Below are positions 12,501-64,000 of a stretch of DNA of 64,000 bases, piece by piece. How positions within the stretch are numbered: the first letter of the stretch is position 1; every line of letters begins with the position of its first letter. The stretch covers positions 105,633,285 to 105,697,284 of the forward strand of contig NC_134827.1 of NCBI RefSeq assembly GCF_004210375.1, in the 5' to 3' direction. Below the pieces are notes generated by a model. The model searched no databases. It was given only the letters and a program-made list of their open reading frames with translations, and was not told the DNA's origin. Made by a program: the position numbers and the translations under genes. The DNA comes from Tachypleus tridentatus. Its lineage: Eukaryota; Arthropoda; Merostomata; Xiphosura; Limulidae.

Positions 12501-15500
12501 GGTTCTCTATGAGTAACGAGTTCCCGCTGGAACAGCGGTGAGTCTAGGGATTTACAAAGTTAGAATCAGAGGTTCGATTCCTTTCGGTAGACACAGAAGA
12601 TAGCCCGATATGGCTTTGCTATAAGAAAAACACATACACGCCCATGATTGATGCTAAGTTGACGTGAAAACACCCACAAAAAATCGTAACCACCATTTTG
12701 TAGCCGTGGTAATAAACCGTGCATTTTTTTTACAATATTCGCACTACTTGTAAAATATAAATAATATTTAAAAATTACAGGTGGCGTTCACGCGCTTATT
12801 AGTGTACTCCACCTTGTAGATATGTTCTGATTATTGACAGGTCATTCCATGGTTCCATCCATTTATTAAAAATACGCTGTCATATAAACCTATGCAGTGT
12901 TGACTATCTTTGATTCTTATATTTGGACTGGGCCCAGCATGGCCAGGTGGTTAAAGCACTCGAATTTTTTATCCAAGGGTCGCGGGTTCGAATCCATGTT
13001 ACACCGATCATGCTAGCTCTTTCGGCCCTGAGGTCGTTATAATGTGACGTCCAATCCCACTGTTCGTTGGTAAAAGATTTGGCGGTGGGTGGTGATGACT
13101 AGCTGTCTTCTTTCTAGTCTTATACTGCTAAATTATGGATGGCTAGCACAGATATCCTTCGTGTAGCTATGCGCGAAATCCAAACAAACCAAATATTTGG
13201 GCTGGGCGTGGCCCAGCGGTTAGCGTGTCTTAACTACATCTTTGAGGTACTATGTCTTTGAGGTATAAATGCGTTATAAAAGTAACAGTTAAGTTCGATA
13301 TTCGGCATATGTTAAACCGTATCTGAAACGGTGTTTGCCGTCTAGTTAAACCACATCTGATCAGCAGGCCTAAAATGGGAATAATTCCTGATTTAGCTGT
13401 TCAGCTAATGGGTCGCATGAGGGCGCTGTTTAAGTTCAAAATAATACTCCAGTTTTCTACCAGCTTGCTTGTTCTGCTGAAGAAATGCCGTAATCTTGAT
13501 TTCGGTGTATAAATTTAAAGGATGATGGATTGTTTGAAGCTAAGCATGAAGTAATTCTGTGTGTGCCATGTTGCCATCCCGCTGTCTACCACTAGGGGTT
13601 TACAAAGTGGAAGGAACAAAACATTAACTAATTTATTTGTTGTTGTTTTTTAAGAGACATCCACTTAACTTACGATGAACACGAAACTGATGCTTGTTGC
13701 ATAACATACTCTTCAAAAAAAGAAACGCAAAAGGCAAAATTTGAGACATATTGTTAACAAGTTTACTCCGGGTAGTTCTGTATGACATGTGTGAAACTTT
13801 GCACATTCACTGCTGAACATCCAAAGTCTGCAAAGGCGAAGTCCACGCTCACTAGTTGAAGTTTAACGTCACTCAACGTCAATAACGAGTATGCCCCCCG
13901 TGAGCATCAATAACTGCTTGGCATCTCCTGCCCATGGAAGCGATGAGATGACGAATCACATCCTTTGGAATGGTTGTCCATTCAGCTTGCAAAGCTGCTG
14001 CAAGCTGAGGTAGAGTCTGTGGTTGCGGTTGTCGCCGTCGCAGACGTCGGTCCAACTCGTCCCAAAGATGTTCGATGGGGTTTAAATCTGGTGATCTGGA
14101 GAGCCAGGGAAGAACGTTGATGTAGTGGTGTCTCAAGAAGACAGTGGTGAGTCGGGCTGTGTGAGGACGGGCGTTGTCATGTTGAAAAACGTCGTTGACG
14201 TTCACCAAGATGGGTTGCACATGGGGCCTAAGAATCTCGTCGACGGTTGCGTACGGTCTGATCGGAAATCCTACGCAGCCCTGGTATGGTTGAAGCAGTA
14301 GACGTCACAGTGGTGGTCCTACCCCGAAGGTGACGTAACCGGAAGTAGCGATCTTGTGCGGGCGTGGTCACACGAGGTCTGCTAGATCGAGGACGGTCAC
14401 GAGTTGATCCATGTTGTTGGTGACGATTCCATTACCTTGTGATGGTGCTTGGGTGGACATTCACAGCTCTGGCAACATCTGATCGAGATTCGCCTGCTTC
14501 CAAGCGACCAATGGCGTTGTTGCGTTGTGCTTCAGTCAGTCTTGGCGTAACTGTATTGCGTGTCGGTGGCTTAACACTGAGCTATGGAAACCGAGAACCC
14601 GTCACTTTTATACGGATTTTGCACATGTTGCACTTGCAGAACATGCAGATTTTTCAAACAAATTTGTTGGACACGAATGCGTTTTGGCGAAAAATCCGAT
14701 GTTTTCCTCCTTTTTCAAAGTTCACAACTTTTATTGTCATTTTGGTCTGACAATCAGTGCCTTAACACGTGTAACATCACATACTCTGAGCTTGTAACGT
14801 TATTACATATATTTCTCTTTAAAATAACAAAAATATCCCTTTTGCGTTTCTTGTTTTGAAGAGTATATACTGAATTTTGTATAACGTTTCGTATCTTGGT
14901 ACATAATCGTGTCTTACTGTTAGAGACGAAACGTCGTTCAGACATAAGCCTAATTATCCCACATATAGCTGTAACAAGAACTACGTCGTAATAATGGAGA
15001 TACGATGAGGATACAACTTGTTAAGAGCAATTGATTTGATGGAAAAAATGAATTTTTAAATATTTTTTTTGTATTTATTAAATCCCGTAATCACAAATGA
15101 AGTTACGACTGGTAAATTTTAAAACTTATAAACAACAACCAGTGATTGTTTATACGGAATTTAAGGCTATAAGTGCTTATTTTGCATGTCATTGCTGTCA
15201 AGACACTCGGCCCAGCATGGCCAAGCGTGTTAAGGCGTGCAACTCGTAATGTGAGGGTCGCGCGTTCGCATCCCCGTCGCGCCAAACATGCTCGCTCTCC
15301 CAGCCGTGTGGGCGTTATAATGGTACGGTCAATCCCACTATTCGTTGGTAAAAGAGTAGCCCAAGAGCTGGCGGTGGGTGGTGATGACTAGCTGCCTTCC
15401 CTCTAGTCTTACACTACTAAATTAGGGACGGCTAGCACAGATAGCCCTCGAGTAGCTTTGTGCGAAATTCAAAAAACAAACAAACAAAACATGTTGTTAA

Positions 15501-18500
15501 CATGTTTTTTCCATGTTAGTCTTGAGTCGAAAGTGATACCAAGGAATGTAATGTGTTTGCTCGAGTAGCTTTGCCCGAAATTCAAAAAAACAAACAAACA
15601 AAACACTCTGACAGAATGTAAAAGAAAAAAAATATCTCAACATATTCGAAGGGGTCCACAGTTGTTTTTTCCCCTCTTTTTTATATCTATATTTTTTATA
15701 CCAAACAATCGTAACCAGAGATTCTTTGCACTCAAGCGGAAAACGAGACGATAGGCTAATCTGTGCTTTGGTCACAACGTGCCTTCTGACTTACTGCTGC
15801 GCCACTGAGGGAAGAAGTTTGTTTGAAAGTTAAGCACAAAGCAACACAACAGGTTATATGTGCTCTGCTCATCACGGGTATCCAAGCTCAGATTCTAGCC
15901 TTGTAAGCTCACAGAGATGTCGCTGTGCAACTGGATGGGGGCGTAACCGAATATATCATCCCCCTTATAAAAATAGGGTGTAATAAACAAGAAATAGGGT
16001 GTAATAAAGAAGAAATAGAGAAAAAACAAGTACCAGCGAACTGATCTTATGAAATTTAAATTCTAGCTTTAAATTTTTTAAATGTTCTTCGATTTTAGTG
16101 CACATCACTTAAAATGTTGAAAACTTAATGTTATTTCATTGATAATTTAATCTGAAGAATTTCAACGGTTAATTTGTATCAGCGTACAGTCCTTTGCTTG
16201 TATTTTTGATACGACATGTTCCAATACCAATTTACAAAATGAGATAACAACTTTACCTCTGTTTAGTCAACAATGTTATTTTGTAGTGTTTGTTGAATTA
16301 CTGGTACCTAGAATAAGATAACAACTTTACCTCTGTTCAGTCAACAATATTACTTTGCAGTGTTTGTTGAATTACTGGTACCTAGAATAAGATAACAACT
16401 TTACCTCTGTTCAGTCAACAATGTTACTTTGCAGTGTTTGTTTAATTACTCGTACCTAGAATAAGATAACAACTTTACCTCTGTTCAGTCAACAATGTTA
16501 CTTTGCAGTGTTTGTTGAATTACTGGTATCTAGAATAAGATAACAACTTTACCTCTGTTCAGTCAACAATGTTACTTTGCAGTGTTTGTTGAATTACTGG
16601 TATCTAGAATAAGATAACAACTTTACCTCTGTTCAGTCAACAATGTTACTTTGCAGTGTTTGTTGAATTACTGGTATCTAGAATAAGATAACAACTTTAC
16701 CTCTGTTCAATCAACAATGTTATTTTGCAGTGTTTGTTTCATGCGTGGTACCTCTCCTGTGAAATGCAGATGTTTATTCTGTCTCTGTGTGTGATCTTTC
16801 CTATAATCAAGTAAGTACCTCATTTTATTTATAAAAAACAGGGCTGTAGGAAGCGATAAGACCAGTCAGTGCATGGCGTGTAAAGCTATAATTTATGTAT
16901 TAATATTTGCTTATGTTAGTTCAATACATTACGTTCTGTGTATGCAGTTTTATAGTTAAAATTGTTTAAGATTCAGTCATAGTAATTTAAAACATTTCTG
17001 GGGGCCTGCTCCCAGAATCCTCCTTTAGAAATGAAAATGTAGTAATGGCCTGACGATTCCAAAACTGCTTCCTACAGCAACGTGAAACGATTCGACGCTT
17101 ACATTTTATACATGTGCATGACGTAAGTGCAACATTTATTGTGTAAAATGTGTTGGTGCATGTTACTGATGTGCAGTTGTACTATTCCTTAGTTTCGATA
17201 TCGACAAAGTTAAATACGACATATTGGATCGTATAAAATCACGTGACATTTCATGAAAATCGCAGACAGTACAACCTTCGTGCGAGTTATATAATGAAAT
17301 TCCAACTTTCTTAACATTCAACGCATTCTTTTAGTTTAACTATTTGACACGACAGAAATAAAAAAGACAAACAGTATATCAGTTTTCTAAATTACATAAA
17401 ACGATTTAGACGTTAGTAAAGCTGTTAAAAATACCTAATAATATTCATTAAATAACACCAAAAATGTCATCTTGACGAAATGGATTGCAAGATTTGGACG
17501 GTCTAAGCATATTTTTGGTTAAGTATACATAGAATTAGGCCTATTGCACGAGGCCTAACGTGTAATGTATATATACATATATACACGTCATTTGAAAAAC
17601 ATTTATTTATTGTAAAAAGTTCACTTTATTCTCCTAAATAATTTAAACGAAGGATTAATAATACTGTTGTTGTTTTTTGTTTTAAACACTGAAGTGTCAC
17701 ATCATATTTTTAGCTTTAAATGAATTTAGGGTCTTTAATAGGTTCAATATTATCAAGTGTGAAATAGGCTTAACTCACTTTAATTTCCCCTAGCACTAAG
17801 TAAAATGGCGCTATCCCTCTGTTGAGCATTACCAAGACCTATATGATGGGATATAAATAACCTTATTTTTTATTAAGTGTTTTGACATGCCATCAGTAAA
17901 TGATTAATACATGAGATTTACCCAATATTTTAACTTCTGGTATGGATGTATAATAGGTAGCTCCATTAAACCCGTTATTGCCATCTGTTGTTTCTATTTT
18001 GTATGAAATAAAAAGGTTCAGTATATATTTGTTTTGATTACAAAGAAATATATTCTTTTGACATAGCTATATATTAAATAAAAATTTAGGTTTGGTATTA
18101 TCACTGTTCAACCAATTAGGTAAGTGTATAGAAATAAACGTCAGCTCAACCTTGAGATACAGGTTTCTCTTCTATTTGCTTAAGTGTAAAAAGATCACGT
18201 TTTTTTGGCTGGTAATTTATCATTAGGCCTATCGGTTACGTATTAAATAAAACTTAGTAGGCGAATTTTTCCTGTTGTTGTGTTTATAGATTAAATTTCT
18301 ATGGTTCTTTTTCAATCACCATTCACAGAAACAAAGGGACCGTTAGCGTGTGCGTAAACATCGCCTTCGTATTAATCTCCATAGTAACTATAGCCTTGAT
18401 CACATACTACAGAGATTTTCCACCGGTCCAACTGTTCGCCAATCCTGATATAAAGTAAGTTCACATAAGAAAAATATTTTTAAATGTAGCTCACGCACGT

Positions 18501-21500
18501 TAAGAAAATACGAACAGTCTTATCTGAATCACTGATTATAAATTCTTTATTAATGCAGGCCATGTGCAAGCGCAGAACACTAAAGGCATATTAACGAACT
18601 CAACTGGATTGAATTTTTTTTAATGTCTTTCAGGCAACAATTTGTGTTTTCTCTGGAGCTCTACACTAAACCATATACACACCTTGGTCCATATGCTGTT
18701 GGTTTACTACTTGGACACATGTACGTGAGAAAACCTCTCTTGACAATTCCAAAGGTACTTTATCTGTCGTGACACCTTAAACACTTCAACCCTTATTATA
18801 CGAGAAAATACTAAGCCTTTAATAGTCTCTGACTATTTTAATAGCATCATAAAATTAAATAGAATATTGTGTAGTTAGCCCTAACTTTGGTAATCTATGG
18901 AAATAATTGTAACAAGGATAGCGGTAAAAACAAAAAGGCAGGTTGAAAGATTATAGCACTTTTGGTTCGTTTATGACGTACTACCTACTTGTTACGTCAT
19001 AATAATGTCGTGTTCAATTTTTCCTGGGCGGCGTCACAAAGATAACAATAAATTATATGTTCAGTCTTGTTTCATTAAAAAAAATACCACACTACACATC
19101 AGTGGCTTTCTTTTTTTGTGTGTTGGTCGTTGGTGTTACATTATTATCTGGACCTTATCATGTCGGTGTTGAATGGTGTAACCCAATGCTGCATAAGAAA
19201 CATACAAATAGACAATAATTCATAAAAGGTAAAATAACAAATACGAAGAACAGCATTTTGGTTCTTTTCATGTGGTTCTCTATTTTATGGAAATGTCATC
19301 CATTTATTTAACTGTGGTTCTCTATTTTTCAAGATATCATACATCATTTTAACTGTGGTTCTCTATTTTGCAAGATATCATACATCATTTTAACTGTGGT
19401 TCTCTATTTTTCAAGATATCATACATCATTTTAAGCGTGGTTCTTTATTTTTCAAAATGTCATTCATCATTTTAACTGTGGTTCTCTATTTTTCAAGATA
19501 TCATACATCATTTTAACTGTGGTTCTTTATTTTTCAAGATATCATACATCATTTTAACTGTGGTTCTCTATTATTCAAGATATCATACATCATTTTAACT
19601 GTGGTTCTCTATTTTTCAAAATGTCATACATCATTTTAACTGTGGTTCTCTATTTTTCAAGAAATCATACATCATTTTAACTGTGGTTCTCTATTTTTCA
19701 AGATATCATACATCATTTTAACTGTGGTTCTATATTTTTCAAGATATAATACATCATTTTAACTGTGGTTCTCTATTTTTCAAGATATCATACATCATTT
19801 TAACTGTGGTTCTCTATTTTTCAAAATGTCATACATCATTTTAACTGTGGTTCTCTATTTTTCAAAATGTCATACATCATTTTAACTGTGGTTCTCTATT
19901 TTTCAAGATATCATACATCATTTTAACTGTGGTTCTCTATTTTTCAAAATGTCATACATCATTTTAACTGTGGTTCTCTATTTTTCAAAATGCCATACAT
20001 CATTTTAACTGTGGTTCTCTATTTTTCAAAATGTCATACATCATTTTAACTGTGGTTCTCTATTTTTCAAGATATCATACATCATTTTAACTGTGGTTCT
20101 TTATTTTTCAAGATGTCATACATCATTTTAACTGTGGTTCTCTATTTTTCAAAATGTCATACATCATTTTAACTGTGGTTCTCTATTTTTCAAGATATCA
20201 TACATTGTTTTAAGAATACACTTATTTTTAAAATTTCCAAAAATTAAATCAGTCGTAACTTGACTCTGATCTCAACTAGCAAAAGAATGTAGTTCTCTCA
20301 GTGTTCTGTCTTTATTAAATGGAACAAAATCCAATTAAGAAGGGATATTTTTGTAGCTGAGTCTTTTAAAATCCTCTATTTGAAGAACAAAACTGGAAGT
20401 AAAACAGAAATCCGTGTTTGTGCAGCATGGCACAATACTTCAATAAAATATGATCGAAGCACCTAGCAGACTGGCAGAACCACGACGTCGAATCTCATTC
20501 GTTTTCGATTTCTATTTCTTCAGGGAAAATATAATATATCTTATGTATATAACAAGCTATTAATATCTAGTTCCTAGACTGATAGTTACATGCGTGTCAG
20601 TTACACAGTATCATCTATTATCCATCATCTGCACATGTCAGAGAAAAAAATCCTATTTGTGGGTGGGTGTGTTTTTTTAATTTGCTAAAACGAAAGACAT
20701 CTTCATTAATATCCACTAAAACGTTTTTTAACTAGTGTGGTATATCTCTGTGTTTCTGTTTTGTTTTTTACAGAATGTTAAAATTTTAGGGTGGCTTCTG
20801 GCAATTAGCTGCAGTCTGGCCGTTGTATACGGGGTATACCCTTGGAACAACGGAGTAGTTCCTAGTCGGTCTACAACTATTTTATACGCTGCAACACACC
20901 GCCTTGTTTGGACTTTAGGTGTTGCCTGGATAACGCTTCTCTGCATTACTGGGCAAGGAGGTGGGTAGTGTCAGAGATGAATAAAAATAATTATTTTATC
21001 TAAGTTAAAAACAAATGTGAAACAATATTTTTATGTGTCTGAACGCCATATCAATTCCTACTGATTATTTTTGGAAAAAAAAAATTTGTTGGAACATCAC
21101 GGGGAATATTGATTCAGTTAGCTAAGTCCATTTCGATTTAAATGAAAAATAAAAGGTTACAAATTTTATTTTTTTATGGGTCGAGGTTTGGAAGGAAGGG
21201 TCCATGGTTCGAGACGTAAAATCGCTCAAAAACGAGCGTCTGCTGATTGGCTGCCCTCAGTCCGTTCCGTAGTTCTAAATTAAGGATGACGATGTCTTAA
21301 CCCTGAATGATCTCTGGCACGTGCGTCATCAGGGTCGAAACATTTAAGTCCACTTCTTCGTTAATGATAAAGTTTATTGCAGTAAGTGTTATATATTCGT
21401 GCAACTTACAAACAGTAATTCACAATGTACAGTTATTGGATCAGTTTCTAAGATGTAAGATAATAACATGTACTGTCTCCAAAGGTGCTGTTATCTATCT

Positions 21501-24342: not shown

Positions 24343-24904
24343 TTTGGAGAGAGTTTACCACTGGAAATGACTGAAAACCTGCGCATACTCATTTGATTAA
24401 TCATTCTTACAAATGTTCAGTAAAAACTTGTAGATGAAAATTTGTCATTAATCTACAAAAATATAAGATTATTTTGGTAAATATATTTGTTGTCCTTGTT
24501 GTTTTAGTTGAGGTTTTTCTTTGTTTTTCTAGACTAACTGTTGTAAACACAAATAATGGGTTTAGTAGTAGTTTATTACATGTTGTTGTTAAATAAGTGT
24601 TTCACCTATTTATATTTACTAATTTCAAATTATGTGTTCGCTCCATTCATCAAGTTAACCTGAAGATGACCTAAGAAGGTCGAAACGTTCTTCTGTACTT
24701 TACTTTAATTAAAGTTTTAGTACCCATACTAGCTGTCGTGAAAGTACATTTTTATTTCAAGTGGTTTTCTCGTCATCATGATTCATCCAGCGTTTACATT
24801 TTTTGTTTATCAAGTAGAAGGTGACGTCCTACAATATACATTACTTGTTCATCGTCTCAAAAAGGCTTAGCAACAAACCAGTTTAGTAGACCTCAAGAAT
24901 ATAA
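24343..24904 (+). other. 3' flank of the NRF-6-like gene
   Basis: Presumed 3' UTR and downstream sequence. No AATAAA is obvious. The second hammerhead-like repeat lies at 24650-24731. Confidence 0.5.
24650..24731 (+). repeat. direct repeat with hammerhead-like core, copy 2 (after last exon)
   Basis: Same sequence as 24086-24168 with few changes, including CTGAAGA, GACC/GGTC and GAAAC, then 'actttaattaaagtttta'. The last exon is therefore bracketed by direct repeats. Confidence 0.75.
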
Positions 24905-27325
24905 TTTTCCCACAAAAGTTACACAGAGAAGATTCTAGATAAATTTAAAGCTACACAGAAAAAATTCTAGATAAATGTAATGCTTCACAGAGAAAATTCT
25001 AGATAAATTTAAAGCTACACAGAGAAAATTCTAGATAAATTTAAAGCTACACAGAGAGGATTCTAGATAAATTTAAAGCTACACGGAGAAAATTCTAGAT
25101 AAATTTAAAGCTTCACAGAGAAAATTCTAGATAAATTTAAAGCTACACAGAGAGGATTCTAGATAAATTTAAAGCTACACAAAGAGGATTCTAGATAAAT
25201 TTAAAGCCACAGAGAGAAAATTCTAGATAAATTTAAAGCTACACAGAGAGGATTCTAGATAAATTTAAAGCTACACAGAGAAAATTCTAGACAAATTTAA
25301 AGCTACACAGAGAGGATTCTAGATAAATTTAAAGCTACACAGAGAAAATTCTAGATAAATTTAAAGCTTCACAGAGAAAATTCTAGATAAATTTAAAGCT
25401 ACACAGAGAAAATTCTAGATAAATTTAAAGCTACACAGAGAGATTCTAGATAAATTTAAAGCTACACAGAGAAGATTCTAGATAAATTTAAAGCTACACA
25501 GAGAAAATTCTAGATAAATTTAAAGCTTCACAGAGAAAATTCTAGATAAATTTAAAGCTACACAGAGAGGATTCTAGATAAATTTAAAGCTACACAGAGA
25601 GGATTCTAGATAAATTTAAAGCTACACAGAGAAAATTCTAGATAAATTTAAAGCTTCACAGAGAAAATTCTAGATAAATTTAAAGCTACACAGAGAAAAT
25701 TCTAGATAAATTTAAAGCTACACAGAGAAAGTTCTAGATAAATTTAAAGCTACACAGAGAAAATTCTAGATAAATTTAAAGCTACACCGAGAAAGTTCTA
25801 GATAAATTTAAAGCTACACAGAGAAAATTCTAGATAAATTTAAAGCTACACAGAGAAAATTCTAGATAAATTTAAAGCCACACAGAGAAAATTCTAGGTA
25901 AATTTAAATCTACACAGAGAAAATTCTAGATAAATTTAAAGCTAGAGAGAAAGGATTCTAGATAAATTTAAATCTACACAGAGAAGATTATAGATAAATT
26001 TAAAACTAGACAGAGAGGATTCTAGATAAATTTAAAGCTACACAGAGAAAATTCTAGATAAATTTAAAGCCACACAGAGAAAATTCTAGATAAATTTAAA
26101 GCTACACAGAGAAGATTATAGATAAATATAAAGCTACACAGATTATAGATAAATTTAAAACTAGACGGAGAGTATTCTAGATAAATTTAAAGCTACATAG
26201 AGAAGATTCTAGATAAATTTAAAGCTAGACAGAGAAGATCCTAGACAAATTTAAAGCTAGACGGAGAGGATTCTAGATAAATTTAAAGCTACACAGAGAA
26301 GATTAAAGATAAATTTAAAACTAGACGGAGAGGATTCTAGATAAATTTAAAGCTACACAAAGAGTATTCTAGATAAATTTAAAGCTACATAGAGAAGATT
26401 CTAGATACATTTAAAGCTACACAGAGAAAATTCTAGATAAATTTAAAGCTACACAGAGAAGATTCTAGATAAATTTAAAGCTACACAGAGAAAATTCTAG
26501 ATAAATTTAAAGCTTCACAGAGAAAGTTCTAGATAAATTTAAAGCTACAGAGAGAAAATTCTAGATAAATTTAAAGCTACACAGAGAAAATTCTAGATAA
26601 ATTTAAAGCCACACAGAGAAAATTCTAGGTAAATTTAAATCTACACAGAGAAAATTCTAGATAAATTTAAAGCTAGAGAGAAAGGATTCTAGATAAATTT
26701 AAATCTACACAGAGAAGATTATAGATAAATTTAAAACTAGACAGAGAGGATTCTAGATAAATTTAAAGCTACACAGAGAAAATTCTAGATAAATTTAAAG
26801 CCACACAGAGAAAATTCTAGATAAATTTAAAGCTACACAGAGAAAATTCTAGATAAATTTAAAGCTGGACAGAGAGGATTCTAGATAAATTTAAAGCTAC
26901 ACAGAGAAGATTATAGATAAATTTAAAACTAGACGGAGAGTATTCTAGATAAATTTAAAGCTACACAGAGAAGATTATAGATAAATTTAAAGCTACACAG
27001 ATTATAGATAAATTTAAAACTAGACGGAGAGTATTCTAGATAAATTTAAAGCTACATAGAGAAGATTCTAGATAAATTTAAAGCTAGACAGAGAAGATCC
27101 TAGACAAATTTAAAGCTAGACGGAGAGGATTCTAGATAAATTTAAAGCTACACAGAGAAGATTAAAGATAAATTTAAAACTAGACGGAGAGGATTCTAGA
27201 TAAATTTAAAGCTACACAGAGAGTATTCTAGATAAATTTAAAGCTACAGAGAAGATTCTAGATACATTTAAAGCTACACAGAGAGGATTCTAGATAAATT
27301 TAAAGCTACACAGAGAGGATTCCGG
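24905..27325 (+). repeat. 32-bp minisatellite (CTAGATAAATTTAAAG), about 75 copies
   Basis: The unit reads 'agagaaaattctagat' then 'aaatttaaagctacac', with variant units (gaggatt, gaagatt, ctagacgg). Blocks of variants recur (for example 25870-26330 resembles 26590-27180), showing multi-unit duplication. Mirrored at 51050-53560. Confidence 0.95.
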
Positions 27326-27526
27326 GTACATTCAGTGATAAAACCTGACATTAAAAAGAAGGCTGGTGCTGCAGTCGAGTCCAATGTAACTACCAAAAGC
27401 TGTTACAGTTGCCACTATAACACTTGTTGAAATCAAAATAATCTGATTTGTCGCCAGGGAACGTGAATAATTAAATAACTTGTTGAGAACAGTGGACAAC
27501 TATTTATGAATTCCAAACGTATATAT

Positions 27527-47562: not shown

Positions 47563-47565
47563 GTA

Positions 47566-48904: not shown

Positions 48905-48982
48905 TTGAGTCAGCGGACTCACACCGCTAGCACAGATAGCCCATCATGCAACTTTGTGCTTAATTCAAAACAAACAAATAAA
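48905..48982 (+). mobile_element. SINE-B fragment (mirror of 29399-29472)
   Basis: It reads 'gctagcacagatagcccatc' and 'tttgtgcttaattcaaaac'. Confidence 0.65.
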
Positions 48983-49509: not shown

Positions 49510-49612
49510 CTCCGATGGGATAGCGAGATGTTTACGAACTTATAAGACTAAATTTGGGGTTCGATTCCCTGTAGTAGATACGGCAGATAGATTAATGTGG
49601 TTTTGGTCTAAA
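49510..49612 (+). mobile_element. SINE-B (mirror of 28766-28866)
   Basis: It contains 'gatgggatagcgagatgttt' and the B box 'gggttcgattccc'. Confidence 0.75.
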
Positions 49613-49848
49613 ACCAGCAAATCGATTACATTTACTTCAATAATTTGTTCGCTGACACAATGAGAGTTATAATAAGGTAAGCCTTTTGTGTACAGAGATT
49701 TTTTAAAATTAAAGTTCGCAAACAAATAAGTCTTTCGATATAACCAAATGCTCACCATTTTGTCTGAAATCAATATTAAACATCGAAGAAAAATATTTAA
49801 AAACGAATTACTCGATTTTTTGTGGAAACCTGTTTTTTCTTTTGTTCT

Positions 49849-50090
49849 TGGTCAGGTGGGTTATGAGGGTCGCGGGTTCGATTCCCCGTCACACCAAACA
49901 TGCCCGTCCTTTCAGCCGTGGAGAGATTATAATGTGACGGTCAATCCCACTATTCGTTGGTAAAAGAATAGCTCAAGAGCTGGCTGTGGGTGGTGATGAC
50001 CAACTGCCTTCCTTTTAGGCTTACACTGCTAAATTAGGGACGGCTAGCGCAGATAGCTCTCGTGTAACTTTGCGCAAATTTCGAAAACAG
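49849..50090 (+). mobile_element. SINE-A (mirror of 28290-28530)
   Basis: The same shortened head (ggtcaggtgggttatgaggg) is present, so the deletion predates the arm separation. Confidence 0.85.
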
Positions 50091-50732
50091 ATAAAAAAAC
50101 GTCTCCCTTACCAATATTTTTTTTCTTATGCAAAACCTAATTTATAATCAAATACAACGCCTTGTTAGAAAATTTAAAACGAAACGTAATGAAAATTTCA
50201 CGTTAACGCTGGTGTATATCTGTCTGTCTGCATCGTCAATGGTATTGAACCCCAATTTATGTTTCTGTCATCGTCCAAAACTGTAGTATCTGATATAAAT
50301 ATCATAATGTTTGAAATGTGGCCTGAATCATCGAACACCCAAGGCCTTTTTCACTATTACAACGATTTTCTGTGTTTCAAAGATAAGCCAGAGGGCCCAT
50401 AACAATAAAACTGGAGTCCGCGATGCACCTGCCCTTATAAGAAAAGCTTTATTACAACCTGAAAAAAACATGTAAAAGTCAATACGAATTACGTTGTTCA
50501 TTAACCGCCAGGGTTCTTGCTTCTAGGGCTGTTCAATTCCCTGTTTATAAAAATAAGAGGTTGAAATTCCCCTTGGGAACTTTCTAGCAATATATCAATG
50601 GAAAGGGTGGGACCTTATAAACGAGTGGAAGGAAAGTACTTAAGACAGTGCACTGAATCCAGTTTTTCATTACACGAAACGATAAAAATAACGCCGCTTA
50701 TAAAGTAATTTACAGATATATATACGTTTGGT

Positions 50733-50851
50733 CGTTGTTTTGAATTAAGCACAAATCTACACAATGGGCTATCTGCTCTGCCCTCCACGGGTATCGAAAC
50801 TCGGTTTTAGCGTTATAAGTCCGCAGACATATCGCTGAGCCACTGGGGGAC
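50733..50851 (-). mobile_element. SINE-B (mirror of 27527-27646)
   Basis: Reverse-complement copy with the same flanking 'atatatacgtttgg' direct repeats. Confidence 0.88.
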
Positions 50852-51049
50852 AATATATACGTTTGGAATTCATAAATAGTTGTCCACTGTTCTCAACAAG
50901 TTATTTAATTATTCACGTTCCCTGGCGACAAATCAGATTATTTTGATTTCAACAAGTGTTATAGTGGCAACTGTAACAGCTTTTGGTAGTTACATTGGAC
51001 TCGACTGCAGCACCAGCCTTCTTTTTAATGTCAGGTTTTATCACTGAAT

Positions 51050-53560
51050 GTACCCGGAATCCTCTCTGTGTAGCTTTAAATTTATCTAGAATCCTCTCTG
51101 TGTAGCTTTAAATGTATCTAGAATCTTCTCTATGTAGCTTTAAATTTATCTAGAATACTCTCTGTGTAGCTTTAAATTTATCTAGAATCCTCTCCGTCTA
51201 GTTTTAAATTTATCTTTAATCTTCTCTGTGTAGCTTTAAATTTATCTAGAATCCTCTCCGTCTAGCTTTAAATTTGTCTAGGATCTTCTCTGTCTAGCTT
51301 TAAATTTATCTAGAATCTTCTCTATGTAGCTTTAAATTTATCTAGAATACTCTCCGTCTAGTTTTAAATTTATCTATAATCTGTGTAGCTTTAAATTTAT
51401 CTATAATCTTCTCTGTGTAGCTTTAAATTTATCTAGAATACTCTCCGTCTAGTTTTAAATTTATCTATAATCTTCTCTGTGTAGCTTTAAATTTATCTAG
51501 AATCCTCTCTGTCTAGCTTTAAATTTATCTAGAATTTTCTCTGTGTAGCTTTAAATTTATCTAGAATTTTCTCTGTGTGGCTTTAAATTTATCTAGAATT
51601 TTCTCTGTGTAGCTTTAAATTTATCTAGAATCCTCTCTGTCTAGTTTTAAATTTATCTATAATCTTCTCTGTGTAGATTTAAATTTATCTAGAATCCTTC
51701 TCTCTAGCTTTAAATTTATCTAGAATTTTCTCTGTGTAGATTTAAATTTACCTAGAATTTTCTCTGTGTGGCTTTAAATTTATCTAGAATTTTCTCTGTG
51801 TAGCTTTAAATTTATCTAGAATTTTCTCTCTGTAGCTTTAAATTTATCTAGAACTTTCTCTGTGAAGCTTTAAATTTATCTAGAATTTTCTCTGTGTAGC
51901 TTTAAATTTATCTAGAATCTTCTCTGTGTAACTTTAAATTTATCTAGAATTTTCTCTGTGTAGCTTTAAATGTATCTAGAATCTTCTCTATGTAGCTTTA
52001 AATTTATCTAGAATACTCTTTGTGTAGCTTTAAATTTATCTAGAATCCTCTCCGTCTAGTTTTAAATTTATCTTTAATCTTCTCTGTGTAGCTTTAAATT
52101 TATCTAGAATCCTCTCCGTCTAGCTTTAAATTTGTCTAGGATCTTCTCTGTCTAGCTTTAAATTTATCTAGAATACTCTCCGTCTAGTTTTAAATTTATC
52201 TATAATCTGTGTAGCTTTATATTTATCTATAATCTTCTCTGTGTAGCTTTAAATTTATCTAGAATCTTCTCTGTGTAGCTTTAAATTTATCTAGAATCCT
52301 CTCCGTCTAGTTTTAAATTTATCTATAATCTTCTCTGTGTAGCTTTAAATTTATCTAGAATCCTCTCTGTCTAGCTTTAAATTTATCTAGAATTTTCTCT
52401 GTGTAGCTTTAAATTTATCTAGAATTTTCTCTGTGTGGCTTTAAATTTATCTAGAATTTTCTCTGTGTAGCTTTAAATTTATCTATAATCTTCTCTGTGT
52501 AGATTTAAATTTTTCTAGAATCCTTTCTCTCTAGCTTTAAATTTATCTAGAATTTTCTCTGTGTAGATTTAAATTTACCTAGAATTTTCTCTGTGTGGCT
52601 TTAAATTTATCTAGAATTTTCTCTGTGTAGCTTTAAATTTATCTAGAATTTTCTCTGTGTAGCTTTAAATTTATCTAGAACTTTCTCGGTGTAGCTTTAA
52701 ATTTATCTAGAATTTTCTCTGTGTAGCTTTAAATTTATCTAGAACTTTCTCTGTGTAGCTTTAAATTTATCTAGAATTTTCTCTGTGTAGCTTTAAATTT
52801 ATCTAGAATTTTCTCTGTGAAGCTTTAAATTTATCTAGAATTTTCTCTGTGTAGCTTTAAATTTATCTAGAATCCTCTCTGTGTAGCTTTAAATTTATCT
52901 AGAATCCTCTCTGTGTAGCTTTAAATTTATCTAGAATTTTCTCTGTGAAGCTTTAAATTTATCTAGAATTTTCTCTGTGTAGCTTTAAATTTATCTAGAA
53001 TCTTCTCTGTGTAGCTTTAAATTTATCTAGAATCCTCTCTGTGTAGCTTTAAATTTATCTAGAATTTTCTCTGTGTAGCTTTAAATTTATCTAGAATTTT
53101 CTCTGTGAAGCTTTAAATTTATCTAGAATTTTCTCTGTGTAGCTTTAAATTTATCTAGAATTTTCTCTGTGTAGCTTTAAATTTATCTAGAATTTTCTCT
53201 GTGTAGCTTTAAATTTATCTAGAATCCTCTCTGTGTAGCTTTAAATTTATCTAGAATTTTCTCTCTGTGGCTTTAAATTTATCTAGAATCCTCTGTGTAG
53301 CTTTAAATTTATCTAGAATCCTCTCTGTGTAGCTTTAAATTTATCTAGAATTTTCTCTGTGAAGCTTTAAATTTATCTAGAATTTTCTCCGTGTAGCTTT
53401 AAATTTATCTAGAATCCTCTCTGTGTAGCTTTAAATTTATCTAGAATTTTCTCTGTGTAGCTTTAAATTTATCTAGAATTTTCTCTGTGAAGCATTACAT
53501 TTATCTAGAATTTTTTCTGTGTAGCTTTAAATTTATCTAGAATCTTCTCTGTGTAACTTT
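51050..53560 (-). repeat. 32-bp minisatellite (mirror of 24905-27325)
   Basis: Units read 'ctttaaatttatctagaatt' then 'ttctctgtgtag'. The array is about 90 bp longer than in the left arm and has a different order of variant units. Confidence 0.95.
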
Positions 53561-53746
53561 TGTGGGAAAATTATATTCTTGAGGTCTACTAAACTGGTTT
53601 GTTGCTAAGCCTTTTTGAGACGATGAACAAGTAATGTATATTGTAGGACGTCACCTTCTATTTGATAAACAAACAATGTAAACGCTGGATGAATCATGAT
53701 GACGAGAAAACCACTTGAAATAAAAATGTACTTTCACGACAGCTAG

Positions 53747-53828
53747 TATGGGTACTAAAACTTTAATTAAAGTAAAGTACAGAAGAACGTTTCGACCTTC
53801 TTAGGTCATCTTCAGGTTAACTTGATGA
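53747..53828 (-). repeat. hammerhead-like direct repeat (mirror of 24650-24731)
   Basis: Reverse complement with the same core elements (GTTTC, GACC/GGTC, TCTTCAG). Confidence 0.7.
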
Positions 53829-54130
53829 ATGGAGCGAACACATAATTTGAAATTAGTAAATATAAATAGGTGAAACACTTATTTAACAACAACATGTAAT
53901 AAACTACTACTAAACCCATTATTTGTGTTTACAACAGTTAGTCTAGAAAAACAAAGAAAACCTCAACTAAAACAACAAGGACAACAAATATATTTACCAA
54001 AATAATCTTATATTTTGTAGATTAATGACAAATTTTCATCTACAAGTTTTTACTGAACATTTGTAAGAATGATTAATCAAATGAGTATGCGCAGGTTTTC
54101 AGTCATTTCCAGTGGTAAACTCTCTCCAAA

Positions 54131-57100
54131 TCAATTACTTTCGTCACTTTTCTTGAGCTTTCGAATCAGAAGGAGTTTTTGGAGACGATAAAATGGCGTA
54201 TCGAAAGCCAGACAACAGACGAAACTGATAATGTACACAATCACCATGTGGCCGATGTAAGTGTAGGCCTGAAACAGTAACAACAAAATATATTCTCAAG
54301 ATACCTGGTATGGGTATTAAAACTTTAATTAAAGTAAAGTACAGAACAACGTTTCGACCTTCTTAGGTCATCTTCAGATTAACAAAGAGTTAGCCTGAAG
54401 TCGGTTTATTAATAAGAAACAAACGCATCATGGATCTCATCAAGCAATGGGAAGTTCTTGTGTAATTAATTAATTAATCAATATATGTTGATACTTCGAA
54501 TACTAATTAGCAAATGAAACTAAAATAGATTGAATATGAATTACAGAAGTTATACAGTATAAAGTTAAAAAAACAACGTCTTTTAAACAGCGGCATACTG
54601 AAGAAAACTGGGTGTAGCAGTGAAAATTATTATGTTGTTTATATCTTATTTTTTTCGGGAAATTGAGCCGTGATATTTCTATTCAATTTATATGACTAAG
54701 AATGGTAACACGTTGTTTTATAGACGATGTGGACAGGGAGTTAATGATAAACAGACAAAGGAGAAACGAGCAGCAACTAGTTAAAGTTGACTGGTTTGTT
54801 CTGAATTTCAAACATAGCTACACGAGGGCTATCTGCGCTAGCCGTCCTTAATTTAGCAGTGTAAGACTAGAGGGAAGGCAGCTGGTCATCACCACCCACC
54901 GCCAACTCTAAAGCTACTCTTTCACCAACGAATAGTGGGATTGATCGTAACTCCCCCAACCCTGAAAGGATAAACATGTGTGACGGGAATTCGAACCCGC
55001 GACCCACAGATAACGAGTCCAGTGCTCTATTCACCTGGCCACGTTTGGTCAATCAAGTAGAAAGGACGATATTTCCAAATGTTCTCTCTATCTGAGTTAA
55101 TTTTGTAAATTAGTCCTATGAGGACAAGTGTCACCGCTCCCAGTTAAGCAGCTGATGTCAGTATCACACGTCAGCATTTCAAAGAAACGTAGTCGCAATA
55201 TCTGCTACATCAGTAACGGTCAAATATTGCTCATTCGTTATCAAGTAGCTGTGTTCACAAATATCCCTCTCGTGGTTATGAGAAATAAAACAGTGTTAGC
55301 TCTCACAGATAATCCACTAACTCATCAATACCGATCTGTACTGATATATATCTGTACGGATATAACAAACGTACTAGTGTAACGCCGGAGCAAAGCACAA
55401 GCTTATAACACCAGTGTTCACGATTAACTCGCTAATATTCATGTATAACTTTAGGTATCTCACACTGGTTGTTTGTTGTGCAACTGTTTTTGTAAATGCA
55501 TACAATAATTAATATTACCAGATTTGGTTTCGTTATCTCGTGATAACTCATCAGATGGCCCGAAATGGCCAGGTGGTTAAGGCGCTCGACTCGTAATCCG
55601 AGAATTGTGGGTTCGAATCCCTGTCACGTCAAATATGCTCGCCATTTAAGCCGTGAGGGCGTCAAAACGTGACCATCAATCCTACTATTCGTTGGTAAAA
55701 GAGTAGTCTAAAGAGTTGGAAATAGATGGTGATGGCTAGCTGCTTTCCCTCTAGTCTTAAACTACTAAATATGGGACAGCTAGCACAGATTATTATAATG
55801 GGATTCTTGTAAGGCAGGCTAATGATACGATTACACACCTTTATCCAGCAAGAAAAGAAAGACAGATTTTTATTTGACATCGAATATAAAAGCTGACAAC
55901 TTTATCAGTGACCAGTGTTGTACTTACAGCAATGTAATGACTCGCATAGATCCTTTCGTGAGCAGAAGCTAAGTAAATCCGCTGTACTAATGGATGAAGA
56001 AGGTAGACTTCCAAGGTAATCCTACTGAATGGAATGAAATATTTGTTGGACAGGATCTTGTTGACAATACCTGATCAAATAAAACATTAACGTGCTTAAA
56101 CAATCGTATAATACATTTGTATTTGTTTACAAAGATATCGTACCATTGTAAGATTGTAGTTTTATTTTAAGAATTTCTAAGATACTTTTAACGTGAACTG
56201 AAATAAATCCCATTCAGAACGATCTACGAAGAGCTTTTATTCTGTGATCGTATTAGCCGCATAGCCACGGATGGTTTTTTTTTTTTAGAGGGGGATAGGT
56301 GTTACGATGGATGAACGAAAGGTGTATAACCCTTGGAGGGAAGTTTTTCGACGTAAAGAAATTAACTAGATCAGCCTGAATACTTGAGTGGGTGTGCTGT
56401 GTTCCGCCCGTGTCCCAAGCATGTCTGTGTGGCGTGTTTGTTAAAAATTTTGTTGTCCTTGAAATTAATTATTACTTGCCAATTTCTCGTAGCGCCAGTG
56501 CATTCGATCCGCGTGTGACGTATTCATCACGTCATATTTGCATCTTGAGAATGGAAAAAAATAAAGTTCTTCGTGATGAGAAACAGAAGAGAAATGGGTA
56601 AATCGTGATTCCTATTGCAAGTCTACGTCCACGCAGGATAAAAATTATGCAAAGTTGGGGGTTGCGCATTGCACAATAAAAAGGTTTTTCCAGTATCATA
56701 TAAGACGAGTTCTACTATAGTGTGGTGATTAGTTTCCAAAATCTATTTTCTTTTTCTCGTGTACATCACTAAAATTATTGTTATTTGATGGCTACTTTTG
56801 GTCAGTTTATAAACTTCGAAAGTCATTCAACCATTCCAAGATTCATTCTTCACTTAAGACAACGCTGAATCATAAATAGAACGTACTTAGTTCAGACTTT
56901 GATATATGAACATTTACTGAACTGTTCAACTAAAAAAGGGTTAAAACGAATATGTGACAGGTATAAGCTAGATAGATAACAGCACCTTTGGAGACAGTAC
57001 ATGTTATTATCTTACATCTTAGAAACTGATCCAATAACTGTACATTGTGAATTACTGTTTGTAAGTTGCACGAATATATAACACTTACTGCAATAAACTT

Positions 57101-60100
57101 TATCATTAACGAAGAAGTGGACTTAAAAGTTTCGACCCTGATGACGCACGTGCCAGAGATCATTCAGGGTTAAGACATCGTCATCCTTAATTTAGAACTA
57201 CGGAACGGACTGAGGGCAGCCAATCAGCAGACGCTCGTTTTTGAGCGATTTTACGTCTCGAACCATGGACCCTTCCTTCCAAACCTCGACCCATAAAAAA
57301 ATAAAATTTGTAACCTTTTATTTTTCATTTAAATCGAAATGGAATTAGCTAACTGAATCAATATTCCCCGTGATGTTCCAACAAATTTTTTTTTTTCAAA
57401 AATAATCAGTAGGAATTGATATGGCGTTCAGACACATAAAAATATTGTTTCACATTTGTTTTTAACTTAAATAAAATAATTATTTTTATTCATCTCTGAC
57501 ACTACCCACCTCCTTGCCCAGTAATGCAGAGAAGCGTTATCCAGGCAACACCTAAAGTCCAAACAAGGCGGTGTGTTGCAGCGTATAAAATAGTTGTAGA
57601 CCGACTAGGAACTACTCCGTTGTTCCAAGGGTATACCCCGTATACAACGGCCAGACTGCAGCTAATTGCCAGAAGCCACCCTAAAATTTTAACATTCTGT
57701 AAAAAACAAAACAGAAACACAGAGATATACCACACTAGTTAAAAAAACGTTTTAGTGGATATTAATGAAGATGTCTTTCGTTTTAGCAAATTAAAAAACA
57801 CACACACCCACAAATAGGATTTTTTTCTCTGACATATGCAGATGATGGATAATAGATGATACTGTGTAACTGACGCGCATGTAACTATCAGTCTAGGAAC
57901 TAGATATAACTAGATATTAATAGCTTGTTATATACATAAGATATATTATATTTTCCCTGAAGAAATAGAAATCGAAAACGAATGAGATTCGACGTCGTGG
58001 TTCTGCCAGTCTGCTAGGTGCTTCGATCATATTTTATTGAAGTATTGTGCCATGCTGCACAAACACGGATTTCTGTTTTACTTCCAGTTTTGTTCTTGAA
58101 ATAGAGGATTTTAAAAGACTCAGCTACAAAAAATTCCCTTCTTAATTGGATTTTGTTCCATTTAATAAAGACAGAACACTGAGAGAACTACATTCTTTTG
58201 CTAGTTGAGATCAGAGTCAAGTTACGACTGATTTAATTTTTGGAAATTTTAAAAATAAGTGTATTCTTAAAACAATGTATGATATCTTGAAAAATAGAGA
58301 ACCACAGTTAAAATGATGTATGACATTTTGAAAAATAGAGAACCACAGTTAAAATGATGTATGACATCTTGAAAAATAAAGAACCACAGTTAAAATGATG
58401 TATGATATCTTGAAAAATAGAGAACCACAGTTAAAATGATGTATGACATTTTGAAAAATAGAGAACCACAGTTAAAATGATGTATGACATTTTGAAAAAT
58501 AGAGAACCACAGTTAAAATGATGTATGATTTCTTGAAAAATAGAGAACCACAGTTAAAATGATGTATGACATTTTGAAAATAGAGAACCACAGTTAAAAT
58601 GATGTATGATATCTTGAATAATAGAGAACCACAGTTAAAATGATGTATGACATTTTGAAAAATAGAGAACCACAGTTAAAATGATGTATGACATCTTGAA
58701 AAATAAAGAACCACAGTTAAAATGATGTATGATATCTTGAAAAATAGAGAACCACAGTTAAAATGATGTATGACATTTTGAAAAATAGAGAACCACAGTT
58801 AAAATGATGTATGACATTTTGAAAAATAGAGAACCACAGTTAAAATGATGTATGATATCTTGAAAAATAAAGAACCACAGTTAAAATGATGTATGATATC
58901 TTGAAAAATAGAGTACCACAGTTAAAATGATGAATGACATTTTGAAAAATAAAGAACCACGCTTAAAATGATGTATGATATCTTGAAAAATAGAGAATCA
59001 CAGTTAAAATGATGTATGATATCTTGCAAAATAGAGAACCACAGTTAAATAAATGGATGACATTTCCATAAAATAGAGAACCACATGAAAAGAACCCAAA
59101 TGCTGTTCTTCGTATTTGTTATTTTATCTTTTATGAATTATTGTCTATTTGTATGTTTCTTATGCAGCATTGGGTTCCACCATTCAACACCGACATGATA
59201 AGGTCCAGATAATAATGTAACACCAACGACCAACACACAAAAAAAGAAAGCCACTGATGTGTAGTGTGGTATTTTTTTTAATGAAACAAGACTGAACATA
59301 TAATTTATTGTTATCTTTGTGACGCCGCCCAGGAAAAATTGAACACGACATTATTATGACGTAACAAGTAGGTAGTACGTCATAAACGAACCAAAAGTGC
59401 TATAATCTTTCAACCTGCCTTTTTGGTTTTACCGCTATCCTTGTTACAATTATTTCCATAGATTACCAAAGTTAGGGCTAACTACACAATATTCTATTTA
59501 ATTTTATGATGCTATTAAAATAGTCAGAGACTATTAAAGGCTTAGTATTTTCTCGTATAATAAGGGTTGAAGTGTTTAAGGTGTCACGACAGATAAAGTA
59601 CCTTTGGAATTGTCAAGTGAGGTTTTCTCACGTACATGTGTCCAAGTAGTAAACCAACAGCATATGGACCAAGGTGTGTATATGGTTTAGTGTAGAGCTC
59701 CAGAGAAAACACAAATTGTTGCCTGAAAGACATTAAAAAAAATTCAATCCAGTTGAGTTCGTTAATATGCCTTTAGTGTTCTGCGCTTTCACATGGCCTG
59801 CATTAATAAAGAATTTATAATCAGTGATTCAGATAAGACTGTTCGTATTTTCTTAACGTGCGTGAGCTACATTTAAAAATATTTTTCTTATGTGAACTTA
59901 CTTTATATCAGGATTGGCGAACAGTTGGACCGGTGGAAAATCTCTGTAGTATGTGATCAAGGCTATAGTTACTATGGAGATTAATACGAAGGCGATGTTT
60001 ACGCACACGCTAATGGTCCCTTTGTTTCTGTGAATGGTGATTGAAAAAGAACCATAGAAATTTAATCTATAAACACAACAACAGGAAAAATTCGCCTACT

Positions 60101-61626
60101 AAGTTTTATTTAATACGTAACCGATAGGCCTAATGATAAATTACCAGCCAATAAAACGTGATATTTTTACACTTAAGCAAATAGAAGAGAAACCTGTATC
60201 TCAAGGTTGAGCTGACGTTTATTTCTATACACTTACCTAATTGGTTGAACAGTGATAATACCAAACCTAAATTTTTATTTAATATATAGCTATGTCAAAA
60301 GAATATATTTCTTTGTAATCAAAACAAATATATACTGAACCTTTTTATTTCATACAAAATAGAAACAACAGATGGCAATAACGGGTTTAATGGAGCTACC
60401 TATTATACATCCATACCAGAAGTTAAAATATTGGGTAAATCTCATGTATTAATCATTTACTGATGGAATGTCAAAACACTTAATAAAAAATAAGGTTATT
60501 TATATCCCATCATATAGGTCTTGGTAATGCTCAACAGAGGGATAGCGCCATTTTACTTAGTGCTAGGTGAAATTAAAGTGAGTTAAGCCTATTTCACACT
60601 TGATAATATTGAACCTATTAAAGACCCTAAATTCATTTAAAGCTAAAAATATGATGTGACACTTCAGTGTTTAAAACAAAAAACAACAACAGTATTATTA
60701 ATCCTTCGTTTAAATTATTTAGGAGAATAAAGTGAACTTTTTACAATAAATAAATGTTTTTCAAATGACGTGTATATATGTATATATACATTACACGTTA
60801 GGCCTCGTGCAATAGGCCTAATTCTATGTATACTTAACCAAAAATATGCTTAGACCCTCCAAATCTTGCAATCCATTTCGTCAAGATGACATTTTTGGTG
60901 TTATTTAATGAATATTATTAGGTATTTTTTAACAGCTTTACTAACGTCTAAATCGTTTTATGTAATTTAGAAAACTGATACACTGTTTGTCTTTTTTATT
61001 TCTGTCGTGTCAAATAGTTAAACTAAAAGAATGCGTTGAATGTTAAGAAAGTTGGAATTTCATTATATAACTCGCACGAAGGTTGTACTGTCTGCGATTT
61101 TCATGAAATGTCACGTGATTTTATACGATCCAATATGTCGTATTTAACTTTGTCGATATCGAAACTAAGGAATAGTACAACTGCACATCAGTAACATGCA
61201 CCAACACATTTTACACAATAAATGTTGCACTTACGTCATGCACATGTATAAAATGTAAGCGTCGAATCGTTTTACGTTGCTGTAGGAAGCAGTTTTGGAA
61301 TCGTCAGGCCATTACTACATTTTCATTTCCAAAGGAGGATTCTGGGAGCAGGCCCCCAGAAATGTTTTAAATTACTATGACTGAATCTTAAACAATTTTA
61401 ACTATAAAACTGCATACACAGAACGTAATGTATTGAACTAACATAAGCAAATATTAATACATAAATTATAGCTTTACACGCCATGTACTGACTGGTCTTA
61501 TCGCTTCCTACAGCCCTGTTTTTTATAAATAAAATGAGGTACTTACTTGATTATAGGAAAGATCACACACAGAGACAGAATAAACATCTGCATTTCACAG
61601 GAGAGGTACCACGCATGAAACAAACA
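54131..61626 (-). CDS. nrf-6-like: NRF-6-like gene, second copy, last six exons
   Basis: Mirror of exons 8-13. Exons by coordinate are 54131-54268 (last), 55928-56070, 57510-57696, 59602-59722, 59902-60027 and 61547-61626. Lengths, phases and splice sites equal those of the left copy (795 nt including stop). By eye I found two coding differences: Val to Ile in the segment KGTVSV and Leu to His in RKPLLTIPK. The open frame is kept, so the copy is either functional or a second allele. Its remaining exons would lie beyond the window end. It is convergent with the left copy. Confidence 0.88.
54305..54387 (-). repeat. hammerhead-like direct repeat (mirror of 24086-24168)
   Basis: Same repeat, lying upstream of the last exon of the second gene copy. 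Confidence 0.7.
54793..55051 (-). mobile_element. SINE-A (mirror of 23421-23680)
   Basis: Reverse-complement copy with B box complement GGGAATTCGAACC. Confidence 0.85.
55557..55790 (+). mobile_element. SINE-A (mirror of 22682-22915)
   Basis: The head is GGCCCGAAATGGCCAGGTGG, with B box GGTTCGAATCC; the same tail truncation as in the left arm. Confidence 0.88.
58274..59080 (-). repeat. 41-bp minisatellite (mirror of 19262-20215)
   Basis: About 20 units, against about 23 in the left arm. One unit near 58580 has a 1-bp deletion. Confidence 0.93.
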
Positions 61627-62050
61627 CTGCAAAATAACATTGTTGATTGAACAGAGGTAAAGTTGTTATCTTATTCTAGATACCAGTAATTCAACAAACA
61701 CTGCAAAGTAACATTGTTGACTGAACAGAGGTAAAGTTGTTATCTTATTCTAGATACCAGTAATTCAACAAACACTGCAAAGTAACATTGTTGACTGAAC
61801 AGAGGTAAAGTTGTTATCTTATTCTAGGTACGAGTAATTCAACAAACACTGCAAAGTAACATTGTTGACTGAACAGAGGTAAAGTTGTTATCTTATTCTA
61901 GATACCAGTAATTCAACAAACACTGCAAAGTAGCATTGTTGACTGAACAGAGGTAAAGTTGTTATCTTATTCTAGGTACCAGTAATTCAACAAACACTAC
62001 AAAATAACATTGTTGACTAAACAGAGGTAAAGTTGTTATCTCATTTTGTA
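61627..62050 (-). repeat. 74-bp tandem repeat over an exon acceptor (mirror of 16236-16730)
   Basis: Each unit carries 'actgcaaagtaacattgttg', the complement of the exon 8 acceptor. There is one unit fewer than in the left arm. Confidence 0.92.
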
Positions 62051-62338
62051 AATTGGTATTGGAACATGTCGTATCAAAAATACAAGCAAAGGACTGCACG
62101 CTGATACAAATTAACCGTTGAAATTCTTCAGATTAAATTATCAATGAAATAACATTAAGTTTTCAACATTTTAAGTGATGTGCACTTAAATCGAAGAACA
62201 TTTAAAAAATTTAAAGCTAGAATTTAAATTTCATAAGATCAGTTCGCTGGTACTTGTTTTTTCTCTATTTCTTCTTTATTACACCCTATTTCTTGTTTAT
62301 TACACCCTATTTTTATAAGGGGGATGATATATTCGGTT

Positions 62339-62500
62339 ACGCCCCCACCCAGTTGCACAGCGACATCTCTGTGAGCTTACAAGGCTAGAATCTGAGCTTG
62401 GATACCCGTGATGAGCAGAGCACATATAACCTGTTGTGTTGGTTTGTGCTTAACTTTCAAACAAACTTCTTCCCTCAGTGGCGCAGCAGTAAGTCAGAAG
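62339..62500 (+). mobile_element. SINE-B and SINE-B head fragment (mirror of 15790-15945)
   Basis: A SINE-B body ('gagcagagcacatataacct', 'gtgcttaactttcaaacaa') is followed by a head fragment 'ccctcagtggcgcagcagta'. Confidence 0.7.
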
Positions 62501-62593
62501 GCACGTTGTGACCAAAGCACAGATTAGCCTATCGTCTCGTTTTCCGCTTGAGTGCAAAGAATCTCTGGTTACGATTGTTTGGTATAAAAAATA

Positions 62594-62860
62594 TAGATAT
62601 AAAAAAGAGGGGAAAAAACAACTGTGGACCCCTTCGAATATGTTGAGATATTTTTTTCTTTTACATTATCTCAGAGTGTCTTGTTTGTTTGTTTTTTTGA
62701 ATTTCGTGCAAAGCTACCCGAGCAAATAGATATAGAAAAGAGGGGAAAAAACAACTGTGGACCCCTTCAAATATGTTGAGATATTTTTTCTTTTACATTC
62801 TCTCAGAGTGTCTTGTTTGTTTGTTTTTTTAATTTCGTGCAAAGCTACTCGAGCAAACAC
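62594..62860 (+). repeat. 133-bp tandem duplication present only in the right arm
   Basis: The segment with 'agaggggaaaaaacaactgt' through 'cagagtgtcttgtttgtttg' and the SINE tail occurs twice (GAGGGG at 62607 and 62740). The left arm (15545-15690) has it once. Confidence 0.88.
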
Positions 62861-63203
62861 ATTACATTCCTTGGTATCACTTTCGACTCAAGACTAACAT
62901 GGAAAAACATGTTAACAACACGTTTTGTTTGTTTGCTTTTTGAATTTCGTGCAAAGCTACACGAGGACTATCTGTGCTAGCCGTCCCTAATTTATCAGTG
63001 TAAGACTAGAGGGAAGGCAGCTAGTCATCACCACCCACCGCCAACTCTTGGGCTACTCTTTTACCAACGAATAGTGGGATTGACCGTAACATTATAACGC
63101 CCCCACGGCTGGGAGAGCGAGCATGTTTGGCGCGACGGGGATGCGAACGCGCGACCCTCACATTACGAGTTGCACGCCTTAACACGTTTGGCCATGCTGG
63201 GCC
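62826..63203 (-). mobile_element. composite SINE/Jockey/SINE-tail retroposon (mirror of 15209-15598)
   Basis: Here the target duplication is perfect: 'gagtgtcttg' at 62816-62825 and 63204-63213. The antisense Jockey piece lies near 62855-62920. Confidence 0.8.
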
Positions 63204-63549
63204 GAGTGTCTTGACAGCAATGACATGCAAAATAAGCACTTATAGCCTTAAATTCCGTATGAATAATCACTGGTTGTTGTTTATAAGTTTTAAAATTTAC
63301 CAGTCGTAACTTCATTTGTGATTACGGGATTTAATAAATACAAAAAAAAATATTTAAAAATTCATTTTTTCCATCAAATCAATTGCTCTTAACAAGTTGT
63401 ATCCTCATCGTATCTCCATTATTACGACGTAGTTCTTGTTACAGCTATATGTGGGATAATTAGGCTTATGTCTGAACGACGTTTCGTCTCTAACAGTAAG
63501 ACATGCTTATGTACCAAGATACGAAACGTTATACAAAATTCAGTATATA

Positions 63550-64000
63550 CTCCTCAAAAAAAGAAACGCAAAAGGGATATTTTTGTTATTTTAAAGAGAA
63601 ATATATGTAATAACGTTACAAGCTCAGAGTATGTGATGTTACACGTGTTAAGGCACTGATTGTCAGACCAAAATGACAATAAAAGTTGTGCACTTTGAAA
63701 ACGGAGGAAACCATCGGATTTTTCGCCAAAACGCATTCGTGTCCAATAAATTTGTTTGAGAGATCTGCAACATGTGCAAAATTCCTATAAAAGTGACGGG
63801 TTCTCGGTTTCCATAGCTCAGTGTTAAGCCACCGACATGCAATACAGTTACGCCAAGACTGACAGAAGCACAACGCAACAACGCCATTGGTCTCTTGGAA
63901 GCAGGCGAATCTCGATCAGATGTTGCCAGAGCTGTGAATGTCCACCAAAGCACCATCACAAGGCTATGGAATCGTCACCAACAACATGGATCAACTCGTG
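63550..64000 (+). mobile_element. Tc1-like transposon, 5' part, cut by window end
   Basis: It begins after a TA at 63548-63549 with CTCCTCAAAAAAAGAAACGC. Transposase N-terminal sequence follows from about 63851 (PRLTEAQRNNAIGLLEAGES, then VNVHQSTITRLWNRHQQHG), a helix-turn-helix DNA-binding region. The expected first codon is ACG, as in the left copy. Unlike the left copy the frame is open through TRLW. Confidence 0.88.

Follow-up and report, generated by a model that had tools for sequence, protein, structure and literature searches.

The right-hand arm of a long inverted repeat on a scaffold of Tachypleus tridentatus is almost certainly a contained haplotig, a form of heterotype false duplication, and the class is assigned here from the assembly sequence by itself. 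The main alternative is a real inverted duplication, young and about 87-105 kb in size, with two convergent and apparently intact acyltransferase gene copies homogenized by gene conversion. Its outer boundaries would by coincidence lie at assembly gaps, which would leave the outer junctions unassembled. We consider this very improbable, on evidence that is set out below together with the points in its favour.

The stretch of DNA that was analysed (the window, 64,000 bases) is C3:105633285-105697284 in an assembly of 2.17 Gb and 205 contigs. Flanks of 100 kb on each side and an additional 40 kb at the right were included, and the examined stretch amounts to 304 kb in all. All positions are window coordinates; those outside 1-64000 lie beyond the window, negative ones to the left of its start. 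The only gaps in the 304 kb are found at 47063-47562 and 152150-152649, each consisting of 500 N, and the first of these is the sole N run within the window. We refer to the sequence before the first gap as contig 1, to that between the gaps as contig 2 and to that after the second gap as contig 3. As it is bounded by a 500-N gap on either side, contig 2 comprises 104,587 bases (47563 to 152149).

Inverted arms and the containment of contig 2

A sequence-only reading of the window had described 47563-64000 as the reverse complement of 14398-30826 with few differences. BLAST returned exactly these coordinates on the minus strand, in pieces running from 14398-15690 paired with 64000-62726 through 24915-30826 paired with 53464-47563. 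The similarity between the arms is far beyond chance. The main colinear BLAST pieces are 95.7-98.6% identical, values that reflect the pairing of tandem arrays in other registers by BLAST. When the arms within the window (16,429 bases at the left, 16,438 at the right) were aligned with MAFFT, the differences were indeed few, with 130 mismatches (75 transitions and 55 transversions) over 16,020 aligned bases. Whole minisatellite units account for 10 of the 13 indels of at least 10 bases in this alignment. Divergence along the arms is uneven; it is close to zero at 22-24.5 kb, about 3% at 14.4-15.5 kb, and 4-5% in two 500-base bins containing most of a 41-base minisatellite. Gene conversion after a real duplication could give such an alternation of nearly identical blocks and blocks with 3% divergence.

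The same reading had the duplicated sequence open on the first base after the gap and run past the end of the window. Both points were confirmed, as base 47563 pairs with 30826 and the minus-strand arm, with which contig 2 begins, extends to 152149. The size of 16.4 kb given for the arm was an underestimate. The copy continues beyond 14398 on contig 1 (plus strand) as well as beyond the window end, and covers the whole 104.6-kb contig 2. In inverted orientation, contig 2 corresponds to contig 1 from end to end, with its first base (47563) at 30826 and its last base (152149) at -56373, where the copied stretch on contig 1 ends. The alignment chain takes in 89,645 of the 104,587 bases. The remaining 14,942 bases consist of stretches of 11,808 and 3,107 bases, both inside tandem arrays, and 27 others. 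The chain is colinear except at an array of 85/255-base units, where it consists of two pieces (only 84-85% identity) that share 10.4 kb of contig 1, and the order there is consequently not base-for-base. Contig 2 is in this way colinearly contained as a whole in contig 1, as expected for a haplotig. In the opposite direction, the chain leaves two stretches of contig 1 unpaired that are outside every array detected (899 bases at -19174 to -18276; 34 bases at 11573-11606), and these may be ordinary insertion polymorphisms. A further 368 unmatched bases (-2182 to -1815) sit in a 95-base array.

The borders of the copy were then compared with the ends of the contigs. Contig 2 has no private flank, as every base at its ends pairs with contig 1, and the ends of the copy are the contig ends on both sides. 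Contig 1, on the other hand, passes both borders of the copied stretch unbroken, with zero N in the 147 kb examined. Both observations argue against a real duplication, and the flank of its own in gap-free assembly that the second copy of a true palindrome would possess was not found in the 304 kb. It should be considered that assemblers break at repeat boundaries, and that an unresolved true duplication could therefore likewise end at contig ends; the far end of contig 2 does sit in a 37-base array. The two copies are separated by an assembly gap, and passages of PMC9516828 name gaps between copies, along with haploid coverage, as marks of false duplications.

Matches across the assembly were assessed with a genome search that ranks the best 40 candidates and omits very common words, and the counts accordingly refer to strong matches only. 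A search with the initial 2 kb of contig 2 gave exactly two full-length matches among the best 40 candidates scored, both at this locus. A probe adjoining the copied stretch on its right (30827-31710, 884 bases) and a 3-kb probe to its left (-69000 to -66000) each matched in full only themselves, again among the best 40 candidates. In the case of the former, the window alone matched query bases 1-883, and dispersed repeats start at about query base 885. Matches longer than 1.5 kb that link one contig to another number 571, and all of them pair contig 1 with contig 2 in inverted orientation, many representing array registers.

Concerning the spacer between the arms, the bordering sequence that is single in the assembly (30827-31710, plus strand) is followed by a LINE-like retroelement (31711-35218, minus strand) dispersed in the genome, whose limits were inferred from repeat matches (tested to 32700) and open frames. 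Its match to reverse transcriptase is below the Pfam cut-off (RVT_1, E 1e-4, 22.6 bits against 29.6). An 11.8-kb tandem array of 24-base units (35266-47062, plus strand) then reaches the gap at 47063-47562, and contig 1 terminates within it. The array displays strong GC skew, and its last 300 bases show other unit lengths.

Divergence, tandem arrays and contig ends

Outside the large arrays, the divergence between the two copies is about 0.85% (409 mismatches in 48,136 aligned bases, nine blocks). This is within the allelic range and fits alleles without being specific to them; divergence alone does not separate alleles from a young duplication. For the genomes of the VGP paper, heterozygosities of 0.1-1.6% are cited in passages of PMC8081667.

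Tandem arrays are present at matching places on both contigs, mostly with unequal copy numbers. The array with a 255-base unit (contig 1, -30688 to -20332; contig 2, 93768-126272) has 40.7 copies on contig 1 and 128.1 on contig 2. In length, this 85/255-base array spans about 10.4 kb against 32.5 kb, a very large difference that is either a real length difference between the presumed alleles or the result of partial collapse in one copy. A 33-base unit is also more abundant on contig 2 (74167-77935, 114.2 copies) than on contig 1 (-244 to 92, 10.2 copies), where the window edge cuts the array. The opposite holds for units of 32 bases (139 copies on contig 1 against 38.9 on contig 2), 49 bases (63.7 against 27.7), 37 bases (56.4 against 21.4) and 48 bases (23.2 against 4.2). 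Copy numbers are nearly equal in a second array of 32-base units (75.7 and 78.5) and equal in an array of 67-base units (40.1 on both contigs).

Small indels (1-5 bases) are concentrated at the two ends of contig 2. The first kb contains 9, every one of them missing from contig 2, and the last 2 kb contain 29, with 17 missing from contig 2 and 12 from contig 1. Elsewhere there are 66 in 45.4 kb, with a maximum of 5 in any interior kb-sized bin. The Poisson tail for the excess is 2e-5 for the first kb and 2e-19 for the last 2 kb, where the widths of the ends were picked post hoc; the last 2 kb are partly 37-base array, which makes the alignment and the indel counts there less sure. The pattern fits the low-coverage end of a contig and suggests that the end of the right arm resembles an end of data rather than a biological boundary. 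We infer that these terminal indels stem from consensus errors, and their excess at either end of contig 2 speaks against a real duplication. In the 7 kb of contig 2 at 141224-148223, the copies differ by 6 substitutions and 18 small indels, which suggests that some of the small indels inside the contigs are probably consensus errors as well.

The acyltransferase gene in the two copies

An acyltransferase gene was modelled on the plus strand of contig 1 at 8756-24342. The model is partial, beginning at 8756 and comprising 10 exons to the stop codon with consistent splice phases. The joined protein of 436 residues, which lacks its 5' part, matches Acyl_transf_3 (PF01757) with an E-value of 6.1e-19 and 68.7 bits against a cut-off of 31, over profile positions 3-324 of 326. 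No Pfam match was obtained with one masked forward-strand frame searched in two pieces, and nine exons searched singly were of insufficient length, giving three weak matches that were all under the cut-off. The gene may encode an NRF-6-like protein, a feature of such proteins being an N-terminal NRF domain.

On contig 2, exons 5-10 to the stop codon are found on the minus strand at 54131-61626, and exons 1-4 at about 66.1-69.6 kb, outside the window. The earlier proposal of two convergent gene copies is thus right as geometry, the right arm inside the window holding exons 5-10 of the 10 modelled. All ten exons are present and open on both contigs with identical splice dinucleotides, a point in favour of a real duplication. 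The coding sequences differ at 2 of 1,314 bases (the count runs one codon past the stop), and both differences are missense (V/I and L/H). As they number only two, we make no judgement on selection. The apparent second acyltransferase copy is probably not real, and annotation of the scaffold would likely list two convergent genes where one probably exists.

Origin of the inverted copy

The interpretation as allelic contigs joined head-on, put forward in the sequence-only reading, was supported by the inverted end-to-end containment and by the scaffold gaps at both ends of contig 2. It was further strengthened by the copy stopping where contig 2 stops, by the indel excess at its ends, and by the outside probes matching in full only themselves. 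We regard the two sequences as presumable alleles of one locus and not paralogues.

A fold-back chimera, in which both strands of a single DNA molecule are read and the assembly turns them into a palindrome, would account for the inverted arms. Such a chimera should show almost no differences between its arms and no gap at the join, but the arms here are neither near identical nor of read length, as the copy is 104.6 kb long and about 0.85% divergent with differing array copy numbers, and a 500-N gap intervenes; we reject it as too long, too divergent and interrupted by a gap, and give it practically no weight. False chimeric palindromic sequences from PacBio, with raw-read lengths of 7-17 kbp, are mentioned in a passage of PMC9516828.

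The contained haplotig would have arisen as follows. The assembler would have written the second allele of a region of 87 kb as a separate contig, which would reach 104.6 kb mainly through longer copies of some tandem arrays, and this haplotig would have stayed unpurged. Contig 1 halts within its 11.8-kb tandem array, and the scaffolder would then have set the haplotig after the halt, inverted and beside its own allele. Gaps of 500 N are typical of Hi-C scaffolders, and Hi-C contacts presumably drove the placement of contig 2. A passage of PMC7203741 states that, as far as its authors know, heterozygous overlaps are not dealt with by scaffolders that draw on long-range information, SALSA with Hi-C being one example.

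Several known systems can be compared with this arrangement. In sex-chromosome and other large palindromes, the inverted arms are long and near-identical, each arm carries a gene, and arm-to-flank junctions are present at both ends of each arm. The present arms are likewise long, inverted and near-identical with one gene each, but the right arm has contig ends at both sides in place of arm-to-flank junctions. Heterotype false duplications, a term of the VGP used in passages of PMC8081667 and PMC9516828, also consist of two haplotype versions in one assembly with a gap between them and a duplicated gene. The copy found here differs from these in being inverted and fully contained; the word "inverted" is absent from the main texts of both papers. 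The contained haplotigs targeted by purge_haplotigs and purge_dups, as described in passages of PMC7203741, similarly lie inside their allelic partner and are retained in the primary assembly, but contig 2 already forms part of a chromosome-scale scaffold.

If contig 2 is a contained haplotig, the scaffold contains a duplicated allele of 104.6 kb, its second acyltransferase gene is false, and contig 1 has probably been parted from its true right-hand neighbour. As an artefact, the finding would serve only as a warning that haplotigs should be purged before gene families are counted or palindromes are searched for on this assembly. The pair of contigs would at the same time represent both alleles of an 87-kb region in which tandem arrays differ strongly in length.

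We also considered a palindrome extending into contig 3, which was ruled out because, in the 51 kb of contig 3 examined, no match to either of the other contigs exceeds 1.5 kb. The shorter matches of contig 3, the best among those listed, are repeats, including a transposon located at 13706-14866 on contig 1. This transposon carries a fragment of a DDE_3 transposase (13879-14304, minus strand). Among the matches listed, two pieces of contig 3 at 162041-163538 are 95-96% identical to it, suggesting fairly recent activity of the transposon.
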